A stretch of 64,000 nt of DNA, taken from positions 62,001 through 126,000 of the forward strand of contig JAHJQV010000004.1 in NCBI GenBank assembly GCA_018819105.1, given 5' to 3'. Below the pieces are notes generated by a model. The model was not told the DNA's origin, did not search any database, and was given only the letters and a program-made list of their open reading frames with translations. Positions 2,180 to 42,785 of the stretch are shown piece by piece (the stretch's first letter is position 1; every line of letters starts with the position of its first letter). Position numbers and translations under genes: made by a program. Origin of the DNA: Gammaproteobacteria bacterium. GTDB lineage: Bacteria > Pseudomonadota > Gammaproteobacteria > Xanthomonadales > Wenzhouxiangellaceae.

Positions 2180-3709
2180 ATGCACCCAATTTTTCACGTT
2201 GTCTTCCATGCTCGCCAGAAACATTTGCTGGCGATTTTTTCCCTGATCACGCTGCTTGCATACAGCCTGGCTGCGGCCAGCAGCAACAGCAAAATCGCGC
2301 CCTGGGTGCAACAGCAACTGGCCAGCAGTGGCAGTAGCGAGGCCATCCTGCGCATGCAGGCAGGCACCGATCTGGGCGACATCGACCGTGCGGCACCGCG
2401 CTTGCAGCGGCTACAGCAGATCACCGAACTGCTGCAGGCCACGGCCGCATCCAGCCAGTCTGCGGTGCGCCAGTATCTGCGCGACCACAACATTGAACAC
2501 CGCAGCTACTGGATCAACAACAGCATCTGGCTGCGCGCCGATGCTGCCACACTGCAGGCCTTGAGCCAGCGTGATGACATCGCCTATGTGCATGCCAATC
2601 CCGGCGTGGCCGGGGATTTTCCTGCCCGACAGGACTCACAGCCGCTGATCCCGCTGGGTAGCATTGAACCCAGCATCAGCCTGGTCGGCGCACCACTGGT
2701 CTGGGCTGCAGGGCACACCGGCGAGGGCATTGTCATTGGCGGCCAGGATACCGGATACGAATGGGACCACCCGGCGCTGATCAACAGCTATCGGGGCTGG
2801 AACGGCATCGCCGCCGATCACAATTACCACTGGCACGACGCCATCCACACCGGCGGCAGCGACTGTGGTGCCGACTCAACCGAGCCCTGTGACGACAACA
2901 ACCATGGCACCCACACCATGGGCACCATGGTCGGTGACGATGGCGGTAGCAATCAGATTGGCATGGCGCCTGGAGCGAAATGGATCGCCTGCCGCAACAT
3001 GGACGAGGGCAACGGCACCCCGGCCACCTACACCGAATGTTTCCAGTGGTTCATGGCACCCACCGACCTGGCTGGCAACAACCCGGATCCGGCCATGGCA
3101 CCGCACATCATCAACAATTCCTGGGGCTGTCCGCCATCGGAGGGCTGTACCGATCCCACCATCATGCAGACGGTGGTGGAAAATGTCCGTGCTGCGGGCA
3201 TTGTCGTGGTGGTCTCGGCCGGCAATTCCGGCAGCAGCTGCGGCAGTGTGTCCTCTCCGGCAGCAATCTACGACGCCGCCTTTACCGTCGCCAACACCAC
3301 CATCAACGACAGCATCGCCGGCAGCAGCAGCCGTGGACCAGTCACCGTGGACGGTTCCAATCGCATGAAACCGGACATCAGCGCACCAGGCACTTCGATT
3401 CGCTCTTCCATACGCAACGGTGGCTATGCCTCGTTCTCCGGCACCAGCATGGCCGGTCCACACGTGGCCGGGCACCTGGCGCTGCTGCTGTCGGCCAATC
3501 CCGGCCTCATCGGCCAGGTCGATTATCTGGAAAACCTCACCCGCAACACCGCACTGCAACTGACCAGCACACAGGATTGCGGCGGCACTGCAGGACTGGT
3601 GCCCAACAACGTGTTCGGTGCCGGACGCATCCAGAGCGATGTGGCACTGGATGGGCTGCTGCAGGAAGTCATTCGCAGCGACGGCTTCGAACAAGCTGGA
3701 GCACTCTGA
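2180..3709 (+). CDS. Exported S8 family (subtilisin-like) serine protease
   Basis: 509 residues. A hydrophobic signal region lies at ~20-35 (IFSLITLLAYSLAAASS), an I9-like propeptide at ~40-140 (YVHANPGV strand at its end), then the peptidase domain. The triad is visible: Asp190 in GGQDTGYEWDHP, His242 in NNHGTHTMG, Ser423 in SGTSMAGPHVAGH, with an oxyanion Asn in IINNSWG. Several cysteine pairs in the catalytic domain suit an extracellular enzyme. The last residues, IRSDGFEQAGAL, carry a DGFE tail shared with four other exported proteins here. The response-regulator gene begins 10 bp after the stop, so the two are likely co-transcribed. Substrate unknown. Confidence 0.93.
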   Translation: MHPIFHVVFHARQKHLLAIFSLITLLAYSLAAASSNSKIAPWVQQQLASSGSSEAILRMQAGTDLGDIDRAAPRLQRLQQITELLQATAASSQSAVRQYLRDHNIEHRSYWINNSIWLRADAATLQALSQRDDIAYVHANPGVAGDFPARQDSQPLIPLGSIEPSISLVGAPLVWAAGHTGEGIVIGGQDTGYEWDHPALINSYRGWNGIAADHNYHWHDAIHTGGSDCGADSTEPCDDNNHGTHTMGTMVGDDGGSNQIGMAPGAKWIACRNMDEGNGTPATYTECFQWFMAPTDLAGNNPDPAMAPHIINNSWGCPPSEGCTDPTIMQTVVENVRAAGIVVVVSAGNSGSSCGSVSSPAAIYDAAFTVANTTINDSIAGSSSRGPVTVDGSNRMKPDISAPGTSIRSSIRNGGYASFSGTSMAGPHVAGHLALLLSANPGLIGQVDYLENLTRNTALQLTSTQDCGGTAGLVPNNVFGAGRIQSDVALDGLLQEVIRSDGFEQAGAL

Positions 3710-37899: not shown

Positions 37900-39732
37900 A
37901 TGGCCTGTCGCCAATCGACCACAGCAGAGCTTCCAGGCATCAGAGTGTTCTTGGTGTGGACCCTGCTCGGCCTGGTCTGTGCTACAGCCGACATCGCCGG
38001 TGAAGATGCCCACGCAACAAACCCGGCACAACGCAGTGGTCAACCTGAGTTCAGCTTTCAGGCTGTAACTCTGGCAAGCTATCTGCCCTCCCCCGGCATG
38101 GGCAGCGGCATTGCCGTGGCCGATTTTGATGCTGACGGCGATCCGGACATCTTTCTGCCGACCGGTGCCGGCGTGCCCAATCAGCTGTGGCGAAACCGTG
38201 GTGACGGCAGTTTCGATGAAGTGGCATCAAGCTTCGGGCTGGACGATCTGCGCCAGGCGCGCGCTGCTCTGTGGCTGGATTACGACGGCGATGGCGATCT
38301 TGACCTGTTCATCGCGCGCGATTGCTTTGCCAGCGGTCAGAACGTCCCAGCCACCGGCAGTTGCGGCGAAGCTGTGCTGTCCCTGTTCGAGCAACGCGCT
38401 TCGGGCTTTGTTGACATTTCGGCACAACGGGGACTCATTACGCAGGCGGGTCAGCTGGCAGACGGCTTTCATTCCGGTGGCCTGAGCGCCGCCGATGTCA
38501 GCGGTGATGGCTTGCCGGACATCTACGCAGCCCGCTGGCAAACCCGGCCCGAACTTTATCTCAGCGACACGCTGTTTATCACCGGCAAGGGTGCCGGGTA
38601 TTCGCTGGGCAGCGGACTGACCACCATCGCCGGACAACAGGCCGGCTACTGGCAGGGTCTGATGCATGATTTTGATCGTGATGGCAGCATGGATCTGTTC
38701 GTCAATGTGGACTTCAGTGCCAATCAGCTGTGGCTGAACCGGGGTCTGCTGGAGTTCGACGACATTGCGGTGCCGGCCGGTGTGGCCTCGGCATGGAACG
38801 AAATGGGCGTTGCCGCTGGTGACTATGACAACGACGGCGATGTTGACCTGTTCGCCAGCAACATCTTTGACTGGATCGGGCCATCTGCCGGCAGCCACAA
38901 CCTGCTGCTGCGCAATGACAGCCACAGCGGTCAGGTGCTGTTCACCGAGCACGCCCAGGCACTGGGCGTGGACGATGCCGGCTGGGGCTGGGGCGCGACC
39001 TGGCTGGACGCGGACAACGATGGCGATCTGGATCTGGCAGTCACCAACGGTTACTGTCAGCCGCCGCCAGACGTCTGTCCGGCGGAGTTTGCCAACGACC
39101 GCTCTCGCCTGTTTGTGCAAACCGGCCCGGGCAATGCCCTGGTTGAAGCGGGTGAGAGCGTTGGTTTTGCTGATCGACTGACAGGCGGCGGGTTGATCGC
39201 TGCGGACTTCAATGGCGATGGCCGCATGGATCTGCTGCAAACCGCAATCGACCCGGATACCTCAGCCAATCCACTGCTGCGCAGTGAGCGTCTCACGCTG
39301 TATCTGAACACGGCAAGCGGCGCTGGAGACAATCACGGCTGGCTGGCGGTGCAGCCACGCCTGCGCGCCGCCAACTCGCATGCACTGGGCACCGAACTGC
39401 GTCTGTATCTGGACGATGGCCGCATGCTGACACGCTGGATTCATGCCGGTGAAAGCTGGCTGAGTCAGGCACCGGCCAGGGCCCACTTCGGCATTGGCAA
39501 TGCCGGCATTGAGCGGCTGGAAGTCGACTGGCCCGAGCTGGGGCAAAACCCCGGTGGCGCCTGTCCCACTGGTGGCCTGCCCGACAGTGGCCACTGCACC
39601 GGCACAGGCGATGCACAAGATGCGAGCGGCGGCACCAGCGTTTTCCTGTCACCAGCGACCGGCACGGTCCTGCACATCACCGGACCTGAGACCCTGCTGC
39701 GCACAGGATTTGAAGACCCGCTCAGTCGCTAG
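37900..39732 (+). CDS. Exported CRTAC1-like FG-GAP/VCBS repeat protein with ASPIC/UnbV domain
   Basis: 610 residues. An N-terminal hydrophobic segment (VFLVWTLLGLVCATADIA) serves as the signal. From ~65 to ~460 there are seven or so FG-GAP repeats with calcium-loop motifs (VADFDADGDPDIFLP, LDYDGDGDLDLF, GDYDNDGDVDLF, LDADNDGDLDLAV, ADFNGDGRMDLL), predicting a beta-propeller. Residues ~470-560 are an ASPIC/UnbV domain (WLAVQPRLRAANSHALGTEL, then FGIGNAGIERLEVDWP). The end, LLRTGFEDPLSR, is a DGFE-type tail. This family is exported; roles are mostly unknown. Its TAG stop (39730-39732) is part of the CTAG that borders the MITE at 39733. Confidence 0.88.
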   Translation: MACRQSTTAELPGIRVFLVWTLLGLVCATADIAGEDAHATNPAQRSGQPEFSFQAVTLASYLPSPGMGSGIAVADFDADGDPDIFLPTGAGVPNQLWRNRGDGSFDEVASSFGLDDLRQARAALWLDYDGDGDLDLFIARDCFASGQNVPATGSCGEAVLSLFEQRASGFVDISAQRGLITQAGQLADGFHSGGLSAADVSGDGLPDIYAARWQTRPELYLSDTLFITGKGAGYSLGSGLTTIAGQQAGYWQGLMHDFDRDGSMDLFVNVDFSANQLWLNRGLLEFDDIAVPAGVASAWNEMGVAAGDYDNDGDVDLFASNIFDWIGPSAGSHNLLLRNDSHSGQVLFTEHAQALGVDDAGWGWGATWLDADNDGDLDLAVTNGYCQPPPDVCPAEFANDRSRLFVQTGPGNALVEAGESVGFADRLTGGGLIAADFNGDGRMDLLQTAIDPDTSANPLLRSERLTLYLNTASGAGDNHGWLAVQPRLRAANSHALGTELRLYLDDGRMLTRWIHAGESWLSQAPARAHFGIGNAGIERLEVDWPELGQNPGGACPTGGLPDSGHCTGTGDAQDASGGTSVFLSPATGTVLHITGPETLLRTGFEDPLSR

Positions 39733-39910
39733 CCCGCATTATTCATGAGTCGACGTCGCGAGATGCTGCCAGTGCCTGTAGCTGTGGCGTTTCACGACCG
39801 AACGAACCGCAGGCGTACTTGACAGTACGTTGAGGATTCGTGACCGAGCGAAACGCCGCAGATGCGGGTATTGGCGGCATCGCAGTAGTCGGTTTCATGA
39901 ATAATGCGGG
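39733..39910. mobile_element. 178-bp MITE-like element with CTAG target duplication
   Basis: Terminal inverted repeats CCCGCATTATTCATGA (39733-39748) and its perfect complement (39895-39910), flanked by CTAG on both sides (39729-39732 and 39911-39914). The interior has a large imperfect dyad (GGCGTTTCACG... and ...GAGCGAAACGCC) and no gene. The two CTAG copies contain the TAG stops of the convergent CRTAC1-like and TonB-receptor genes. It differs in sequence from the element at 5987 but shares the CTAG target. Confidence 0.85.
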
Positions 39911-42739
39911 CTAGAACAGTCGCTGGGTCAGGCGCAGCCAGAACGTGGTACCCAGCAAGCGATAGGTGGAGACGTCAGTGTTGCCCTCGTCGGCGTTGAC
40001 CAGCAGCGGCGGCTGATCGTCAAACAGGTTGTCCACGCCCAGCATCAATGCGGTGCGGCTGCGCCATTCATGACCCACGTAAACATCGTGGTACAGGGTG
40101 TGTCCGACCCGGTTCACGGTGCCGGGAAACACCTCGCCTCCGCGCTCCGCGATGGCACCGATCCATTGCAGGGCATAGCCTGCGGTCCAGCCGCCACGGC
40201 GCCAGTCCAGCCGGTAATTGCCCTGCCACTCGGGGATGGCACCGAAATTGTCCTGGTCAAACCCGCCGGCACCGACAAACGGCTCGGCACCGGGAAAGGC
40301 GACCAGATCTCGCTCCAGCACGTGGCTGATCAGCGCGCGGTGGCTGAAGCTGCCCAGGCTGCTGTCATGCCGGTAGCGCAGATCAAGATCCAGGCCTTGT
40401 GCGGTTTCAGCCGCCAGGTTCTGCAGTTGCGCCTGCACACTGGTGATGCGGCCATCATCGGCACGGTTGATGCGATCACAGAACGCCGCCGCACCGGTGG
40501 CCAGACACTGTTCCAGTATGGTGTTGGCACCGAGACTGGCAATGCCATCGTCGATGTCGATGTTGTAGTAGTCCAGACTCAGCTCCAGCGCCGGCAATGA
40601 CGTTGGCAGCCAGGTGAAGCCGGCGGTGATCACTTCCGCCTGTTCCGCGTTTAGGTTGATGTTGCCGCCGGACAATTCCGGCGTCTCCTCGCCGTTCTGG
40701 CTGAAGCTGCCGTCGGCCGGTACGCCCTGGGCCACGCAGCGCTCGATTTCGGTGCCCGTCAGCGTGCTGAAATCGGCGCAGGGGTCGGTGACGATGGGGT
40801 TGGCCTGGGTAAAGCCGCCAAACAGCTCACCAACGTTGGGGGCACGGAACGCCTCCGACCAGGCCGCGCGCAGCCGCAATGATTCCACCGGTGTCCAGTA
40901 CATGCCGGCCTCGAACACGGTCTTGCTGCCAAAATTGGAAAAATCCACCAGCCGCGTGCCCAGATCCAGAGTCAGCGACTGTGCCCACGGCAGATCGCGC
41001 AGCAAGGGCACGCCCAGCTCCAGATAGGCCTCCTTGCTGTCAAACTGCCCGGCGGTGATCGCCCTGGCACTGCCGCTGGTGTTGCCAAGCACGGTTTGTG
41101 CATCCGGCACGTCGGCGGCCTGCTCTTCGCGATACTCAAACCCCAGCGCCATCTGCATGCTGCCGGCCGGCAATGACAGCAGACTGCCACTGAGGTTGGC
41201 ACTGGCCACGGTCTGTTCATTGAAGCCACGATCCTGCAGATCGGTGTCGACAAAGTCCAGCATGTCCTGGCTGATGCTGCCGGCACCACCAAACAGGTTC
41301 AGCGGCACGCAATCGGGCAATGGCGCGGCCGGCGTGCCGCACACCGCATTGCCATCGGTGTCCAGAAACGACGGGCCCAATGCCACTCGCAAGCGCGAAT
41401 CCAGCAGGTCACCGGTCTGCAGCTGATCCACCGTGTTGCGGCCACGGGTGATGCTGGCGTCCCAGAACCAGCCAGCCAGCAGGCCATCGGCACCGACCAC
41501 AAAGCGCCAGGCTTCGTTGTCCTGAACAAAGTCACGCGGCCCGGCTTCGATCAGCCGTCGTCGTACATCGGTGAGTGTCTCGCCGAAAGGGTTGAACAGA
41601 TTGTCGGCGCTCACCGCCACATCCTGCTCGCGATTGGTGAAAAACGGCAGTGGCGCAAGCCGGGTGCGTGAATCGCGATCATGATAGAACGCCTCGGCAA
41701 ACAGATTCAGCGCCGTGCTGAAGCGATATCGGCTCTGGGCAAACAGCGACAGGCGCTCCGACGGCTGCTGCAGATCCTCGAACGGGTTGAAGTTGAAACG
41801 GTCGGTGTCCGGGTCACTGTTGTCGCCAATCCAGGGTCGGAAATCGCTGAGATCACGGCCATCTTCTCCGTCAATCAGCGTCAGGCGCCCCAGCGAAGTG
41901 CGGAAATTGCCCTGCGGCGGTGCCGAACTGCCATCGAACACCGGTGTGTTGTCCGGTCCGGTAAAACTCAATCGGCGTTCGGCAAAGGCGCGTTCGCCCT
42001 TGCCCACCGAGGTCTGATCCACATACTCGGCGCCGAGAAAATACTGCCAGCGCTCACGCTGCTGGCCGAATACCAGGCTGACCTGTAGCGACTCTGCATC
42101 ACCGCGACTGCTGCTCAGGCCCTGGGCATTCAGTTCCAGGCCGTCGGTCTGCTGGCGGGTGATGATGTTCACCACTCCGGCCACGGCATCGGCACCGTAT
42201 TCCACCGAAGCCCCCGACTTGAAAATTTCCACCCGATCCACCGACGCCATCGGCAGCATGTTCAGATCGACTATGCCGCTGGCACCGTTGCCGCCGGGCA
42301 CAAAACGCCGCCCGTTGACCAGCACCAGCGTGCGTTGCGCCCCCAACCCACGCAACTCAATCGAGGCAATGCCACGTGACAGACCACCGCCCTCACCACG
42401 CGCACCGGTGCTGGTGTTGAGCGGAGACCCGGCCATGAACGGCAGCTGCTGCAGGAACGCACCGAGAAACTGCTGACCGGAGGTTTCCAGCTGCTGACGA
42501 TCGATCACGGTCAGCGGGTAAGCGCCGTCGGGCATGTCCATGCGCAGCCGCGTGCCGGTGACAGTGATGTTGTCCAGCGCTCGCTCATCGGCATCATCAC
42601 CAGCCGGCGTAGTTTGCGCCGGCAGCGCCAGCGCCAGCAGCAAACCCGGCAGACACAGCAGACTGACAGCAATACGTGGACAGATCGAAGGGCGATCGCA
42701 ATCGGTAAACGGCTGACTGCAGGAGGTTGTGAGGCGCAT
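39911..42739 (-). CDS. TonB-dependent outer-membrane receptor (PmrA-box controlled)
   Basis: 942 residues from the ATG at 42739; a TTG 8 codons earlier (42763) is less likely. The N-terminus is unusually long, with the hydrophobic signal at ~25-48 (IAVSLLCLPGLLLALALPAQ). Plug: LDNITVTGTRLRMDMPDGAY, AQRTLVLVNGRRFVPGG, and EIFKSGASVEYGADAVAGVV with NIITRQ. The barrel ends WLRLTQRLF with a terminal Phe. It belongs to the group with VNGRR-type plugs, often peptide- or polymer-related, but the ligand is unknown. A perfect PmrA-type box sits 47 bp upstream, and a PmrAB/QseBC-like two-component system is next. Its TAG stop is in the CTAG copy next to the MITE. Confidence 0.92.
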   Translation of the reverse strand: MRLTTSCSQPFTDCDRPSICPRIAVSLLCLPGLLLALALPAQTTPAGDDADERALDNITVTGTRLRMDMPDGAYPLTVIDRQQLETSGQQFLGAFLQQLPFMAGSPLNTSTGARGEGGGLSRGIASIELRGLGAQRTLVLVNGRRFVPGGNGASGIVDLNMLPMASVDRVEIFKSGASVEYGADAVAGVVNIITRQQTDGLELNAQGLSSSRGDAESLQVSLVFGQQRERWQYFLGAEYVDQTSVGKGERAFAERRLSFTGPDNTPVFDGSSAPPQGNFRTSLGRLTLIDGEDGRDLSDFRPWIGDNSDPDTDRFNFNPFEDLQQPSERLSLFAQSRYRFSTALNLFAEAFYHDRDSRTRLAPLPFFTNREQDVAVSADNLFNPFGETLTDVRRRLIEAGPRDFVQDNEAWRFVVGADGLLAGWFWDASITRGRNTVDQLQTGDLLDSRLRVALGPSFLDTDGNAVCGTPAAPLPDCVPLNLFGGAGSISQDMLDFVDTDLQDRGFNEQTVASANLSGSLLSLPAGSMQMALGFEYREEQAADVPDAQTVLGNTSGSARAITAGQFDSKEAYLELGVPLLRDLPWAQSLTLDLGTRLVDFSNFGSKTVFEAGMYWTPVESLRLRAAWSEAFRAPNVGELFGGFTQANPIVTDPCADFSTLTGTEIERCVAQGVPADGSFSQNGEETPELSGGNINLNAEQAEVITAGFTWLPTSLPALELSLDYYNIDIDDGIASLGANTILEQCLATGAAAFCDRINRADDGRITSVQAQLQNLAAETAQGLDLDLRYRHDSSLGSFSHRALISHVLERDLVAFPGAEPFVGAGGFDQDNFGAIPEWQGNYRLDWRRGGWTAGYALQWIGAIAERGGEVFPGTVNRVGHTLYHDVYVGHEWRSRTALMLGVDNLFDDQPPLLVNADEGNTDVSTYRLLGTTFWLRLTQRLF

Positions 42740-42785
42740 AGGGCGATACTGATAACGATTCAACGCGCCATTATGGCCAGCCTGG

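Follow-up and report, generated by a model that had tools for sequence, protein, structure and literature searches.

The DNA analysed here, a stretch of 64,000 nucleotides from a gammaproteobacterium of the Wenzhouxiangellaceae (the window), contains two convergent genes, one CRTAC1-like and one encoding a TonB-dependent receptor, that end on the two borders of a single palindromic repeat. This raises the question of how a mobile element can come to lie between two genes and provide each with a stop codon. An interpretation made earlier from the letters alone (the sequence-only reading) proposed a MITE whose insertion duplicated one CTAG word in which both genes ended. The genome of the window, G000, consists of 3.14 Mb in 68 contigs. 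G001 is its only same-genus relative, and G022, from another genus, is a complete genome.

The element and its flanking genes

Read directly, the window copy (...AGTCGCTAGCCCGCATTATTCATGA...TCATGAATAATGCGGGCTAGAACAG...) is a near-perfect hairpin of 186 nt with CTAG at each flank, at 39729–39732 and 39911–39914 (Table 1). The predicted fold, −118.1 kcal/mol, pairs almost end to end (z = −13.2, with 0 of 200 shuffles as good). Copies of the element are short (163–204 bp) and noncoding, and most have a perfect 17-base terminal inverted repeat. Reading inward, two of the three frames meet their first stops at positions 1 and 17.

The CRTAC1-like gene stops at the TAG of 39730–39732, the left border of the element, and the TonB receptor gene at the TAG of 39913–39911 on the minus strand, the right border. 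That each convergent gene takes its stop from a flanking CTAG, as had been proposed, can therefore be read in the sequence itself. The receptor ends in ...LTQRLF-stop and its same-genus orthologue in G001 in ...LTQHLF-stop. The C-terminal Phe is common to both, and thus the receptor frame is intact up to its native C terminus; on this side the proposal that the last sense codon was retained agrees with the orthologue. The CRTAC1-like protein carries five additional C-terminal residues, DPLSR, relative to the G001 and G015 orthologues, which end in ...(G/S)FE.

Table 1. Features at the CRTAC1–MITE–TonB junction (window positions)
Feature	Position	Strand	Basis or remark
CRTAC1-like gene, 610 aa, FG-GAP repeats and UnbV/ASPIC (UnbV_ASPIC)	37900–39732	+	start may be 37945
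Palindromic MITE, CTAG included at either end	39729–39914		sequence, repeat matches, fold
Left target TA, to which the element's initial G adds the last base of the CRTAC1-like gene's TAG stop	39730–39731		sequence
Element core (GCCCGC...GCGGGC), 180 bp on the assumption of a TA duplication	39732–39911		inferred, flanks of 68 copies
Left terminal inverted repeat, GCCCGCATTATTCATGA	39732–39748	+	sequence, terminal-repeat matches, copy flanks
Right terminal inverted repeat, reverse complement of the left 17 bases	39895–39911	−	sequence, repeat matches, flanks
Right target TA; read on the minus strand together with the element's final C, it is the TonB receptor gene's TAG stop	39912–39913		sequence
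TonB-dependent receptor gene, 950 aa, TonB plug and barrel	39911–42763	−	start may be 42739

Copies and spread

The element has many dispersed copies: 70 scored matches in G000 lie at about 40 places. Terminal-repeat matches with up to three mismatches number 99, versus 0 for a reversed control pattern, and repetition in this genome is far above chance. The element is also found in further genera of this family: related copies, 167 bp including both TAs, are present in G022 and G005, with one in G012. They have the ends and the full-length palindrome in common with G000 copies, and differ from them in the arms. In a class-wide sample of 369 genomes, only two have the exact 20-base element end, one of them G000. 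Searches of plasmids, E. coli genomes and Rfam gave nothing convincing, a search of IMG/VR gave one contig, and a literature search for the terminal sequence found none.

Copy number, terminal repeats and hairpin bear out the identification as a MITE, and the window copy is far from alone in having CTAG at its flanks, as many of the copies do. The element belongs to a known kind, the palindromic CTAG-targeting MITE.

Target site and duplicated unit

In most of 68 two-ended copies the element is preceded by CTA and followed by TAG, and CTAG or near-CTAG is present at almost every border in three genomes. The word is otherwise rare, with 76 occurrences in 400 kb of G022 and 102–104 in 464 kb of G000. 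CTAG as the target is thus borne out by the borders. The proposal that CTAG is also what is duplicated stands in part: CTAG is found on each side, and the unit is ambiguous, since a duplication of TA within CTAG and one of the 4-bp CTAG yield the identical product and joined flanks cannot separate the two.

The exceptional borders are informative. L013 has CTAG/CTAA, and L020 and L022 have TTAG/CTAG; TA is thus found on both sides where the four-base words are unequal, which favours TA as the unit. In addition, the outer border bases of G000 copies vary more than the inner ones (about 8 vs 1). From such border comparisons, the duplicated unit is probably TA within CTAG, rather than the 4-bp word. 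A true 4-bp CTAG/YTAR duplication by an IS5-type element has a precedent in MITEPsy1, which duplicates 4-bp CTAG or YTAA (PMC3189936), and would account for the CTAG on both sides of most copies and for L179, with CTAA on both sides. The unequal borders of the three copies and the variable outer bases speak against it, as does the GCCCGC end of the element, which is not the GGAAGG-type end of MITEPsy1. We consider this explanation rather unlikely.

In the mechanism proposed, a non-autonomous palindromic MITE would enter the TA of CTAG, mobilized most likely by a transposase of the IS630/Tc1-mariner type. The element starts with G and ends with C, and each border would again read C-TA-G. Because these terminal bases rebuild TAG at each border, a gene that ends on the TAG of a target CTAG would retain its stop, whichever unit is duplicated. 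This mechanism of stop preservation is sound.

Empty sites are found for sister copies. The empty site of L164 (G022) in the congener G054 (L316) is a single CTAG, ...GGTTCCCTAGAAGATC..., on which the orthologous gene ends at the same residue as at L164. The joined flanks of L172 (G022) match G045 (L285) at 220 of 220 positions, ungapped. For these sister copies, therefore, the CTAG-type site predates the insertion, as does the stop. An empty site of this kind had been predicted for the window copy as well; target duplication is seen by this route in the G022 sisters, and searches with the flank DNA and the CRTAC1 protein found neither the window copy's own empty site nor a syntenic relative.

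Relation to known elements and transposases

According to its title, as cited in PMC2170065, the work of Tenzen and Ohtsubo (1991) reports that IS630 prefers the TA in 5′-CTAG-3′. For the IS630 family, which includes ISY100 and the IS630 of Shigella sonnei, the target is TA, preferably within CTAG, as is probably the case here. The IS630-derived MITE RUP resembles the window element as a short noncoding derivative that has terminal repeats and carries TA at each end (PMC2229807). The window element differs from IS630 and RUP in being palindromic along its whole length, and no IS630 transposase with its terminal repeats was found in the genomes searched. MITEPsy1 of Pseudomonas syringae, about 100 bp, is similar in target, entering CTAG or YTAA (PMC3189936), but its ends are GGAAGGTCTGAAAAAGCC in contrast to GCCCGCATTATTCATGA, and the 4-bp duplication is a feature of MITEPsy1. 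QMITE2 of Coxiella burnetii is likewise a stable stem-loop MITE that alters or supplies a gene 3′ end (enhC; PMC5896051); it extends the gene, whereas the window element leaves the last codon in place. REP/REPIN sequences are also multicopy palindromes in gene spacers. REPs are palindromes of 20–40 bp (PMC3733652), and membership in this group is ruled out by the 163–204 bp length of the element copies, which have CTAG-duplicated borders.

In G000, G022 and the relatives searched, no copy with ends 1–2 kb apart carries a transposase. Transposases of the DDE_3 (IS630) and DDE_Tnp_1_4 (IS1380) families from several relatives were considered as partners and rejected, as the ends do not match. The IS630 transposase elements of G000 and G022 end in TTAACCCGG, unlike the MITE ends, and an IS630 element in G005 ends near TGTACCTCG and resembles a neighbouring MITE family. 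One-sided terminal-repeat matches in G000 and G022 were discarded as autonomous copies; they are truncated or chimeric, and no transposase was seen. The sole 2.08-kb copy, in G022, proved to be a MITE with a group II intron within it.

Copies at gene ends

Gene ends were called with a simple coding-score caller written for the analysis, not a standard annotator, and copies were compared with every remaining noncoding CTAG site in samples of 400–464 kb. The sequence-only reading had raised the question of whether other copies lie at gene ends, and they do: in the three genomes together, 20 of 67 two-sided copies supply the stop to at least one flanking gene. Exact border stops are seen at 2/24 copies in G000, 12/20 in G022 and 6/23 in G005, and background noncoding CTAG sites lie at stops in 4/68, 10/52 and 10/35 cases, respectively. 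Enrichment is confined to G022 (12/20 vs 10/52; Fisher p = 0.0014). The recurrence of copies at gene ends is real, and the counts do not amount to a general preference.

One further copy, L167 of G022, supplies stops on both sides, to a convergent pair made up of an asparagine-synthase-like gene and one for an ABC transporter. At this locus a group II intron lies in one MITE arm (L167:2230–4145), with a reverse transcriptase open reading frame at 2330–3655 on the minus strand.

G022 copies lie between convergent genes more often than other noncoding CTAG sites do (12/20 vs 9/46, p = 0.003) and never between divergent genes (0/20 vs 13/46, p = 0.006). Such a distribution would result if the hairpin were retained as a transcription terminator at convergent gene pairs, and equally from the loss of copies that damage promoters. 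In G000 and G005 neither a convergent bias nor an avoidance of divergent pairs was found, and a T-tract intrinsic terminator was looked for at the element and not found. A terminator role thus appears improbable.

Origin of the junction

The sequence-only reading held that, before insertion, both genes must have ended in a single common CTAG. Comparison with relatives goes against this necessity. CRTAC1 adjoins TonB in no relative examined, G001 and G015 included. The TonB orthologue of G001 (82% amino acid identity over 919 residues) ends in TTC TGA TAG, thus with a TGA stop, and faces a 2-hydroxyacid dehydrogenase gene. Upstream of CRTAC1 the gene order is kept in G001 and G015, and the downstream neighbours differ. 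In G000, 76 bp separate the end of the dehydrogenase orthologue (87% amino acid identity) from another MITE copy, which lies at the terminus of contig C48. By estimate, for some 3000 genes and about 45 copies, the probability of such an adjacency by chance is a few per cent. As both genes have other partners in relatives, and the dehydrogenase adjoins another copy, the new adjacency breaks at the element.

We therefore prefer, with a probability of about 0.6, the reading in which a non-autonomous MITE, moved into the TA of CTAG by an IS630-type transposase, forms a junction composed of the left border of one insertion and the right border of another. The left border would stem from an insertion at the CRTAC1 stop and the right from one at the TonB stop, and either recombination of near-identical copies or the assembler would have brought them together. 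In the window copy, and in no other, C60, common to L012, L013 and L015, occurs with T143/C147 of another copy group. This mixed haplotype fits a joint of two copies, the three single-base sites being weak evidence. Against a two-copy history, gene order is fluid in the family, and loss of synteny by itself proves little. The copy beside the dehydrogenase gene, a long-arm variant, may have its true partner in another contig end (L036 or L047) and not in TonB. Border stops are rare in G000 (2/24), and two independent ones are therefore a demand on this history. The G001/G015 downstream genes, expected at the reciprocal product of a MITE–MITE exchange, were not found within 694 kb of G000.

The competing history, a single insertion that duplicated a CTAG in which CRTAC1 and TonB overlapped with both stops, predicts that an element-free site would read ...CAGTCGCTAGAACAGTCG... 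between the facing genes, and the joined flanks of the window copy read ...CGCTAGAACAG.... Uninserted CTAGs that carry shared stops do exist in relatives, at L227:9747 in G022 and L269:8524 in G005, and L167 is another double-stop copy. With one such site among 52 noncoding CTAGs, about 0.4 double-stop copies are expected by chance among the 20 of G022, and one need not be strange. In G000, 464 kb contain no shared-stop CTAG; the absent adjacency in G001 and G015, and the MITE beside the dehydrogenase, TonB's neighbour in G001, also weigh against this history. A single shared CTAG is, on these comparisons, unproven and somewhat disfavoured; it is a serious possibility, with perhaps a third of the weight.

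The two-insertion junction could also be the work of the assembler, the true orders being dehydrogenase–MITE–TonB and CRTAC1–MITE–other, with CRTAC1 joined to TonB via the repeat. About 14 contig ends of G000 lie inside copies, including one beside the dehydrogenase gene, and the mixed haplotype would be explained. Since about 24 copies are assembled whole, reads evidently spanned many of them, and the dehydrogenase-side copy is a long-arm variant whereas the window copy is short. An artefact seems doubtful. The contig ends within copies are L011, L016, L031, L032, L036, L038 and L040–L047, and gene order across copies in this assembly should be treated cautiously.

Neighbouring MITE families and significance

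Other palindromic MITE families, with ends TGTACCCCGCC, TGGGCCATGCGG and GAGCCTGTCGGATTT, abut the element with one CTAG in common, at L014, L019, L027, L028 and L047 in G000 and at L156, L158, L160, L168, L175, L177 and L178 in G022. Several loci among L181–L204 in G005 are similar, and the joint TA is often altered there (CTCG, CTGG, CGAG, CCAG). From these arrangements it looks as if the rebuilt CTAG acts as a landing site for other MITE families. Next to the element at L178:2206–2250 (G022), CTAGTGGGCCATGCGGCTAATTAGCCGGATGGCCCACTAG forms a palindrome of 40 bp that looks like a minimal MITE bordered by CTAG. L165:2056 and L174:2073, also in G022, are chimeras with one end from this MITE and the other from another CTAG-bordered family. 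L150:1340–2520 in G005 encodes a transposase of the IS630 type (DDE_3, 361 aa). Its ends, near TGTACCTCG, are similar to those of the neighbouring TGTACCCCG MITE family and make it a candidate partner for that family.

A tentative extension, which we regard as speculative, concerns genomes in which CTAG is scarce and many of the remaining noncoding CTAGs are at TAG stops. There the MITE would be 'stop-codon-safe', its chemistry restoring the stop at either border, with gene ends a harmless niche, and recombining copies may reshuffle gene order with stops kept. A repeat that has stops at both borders need not reflect a single insertion, and the joint may derive from two copies. The element shows in simple form how an insertion at a stop codon can do no harm when target choice, duplication and element ends act together, and how often this happens has here been counted in three genomes.
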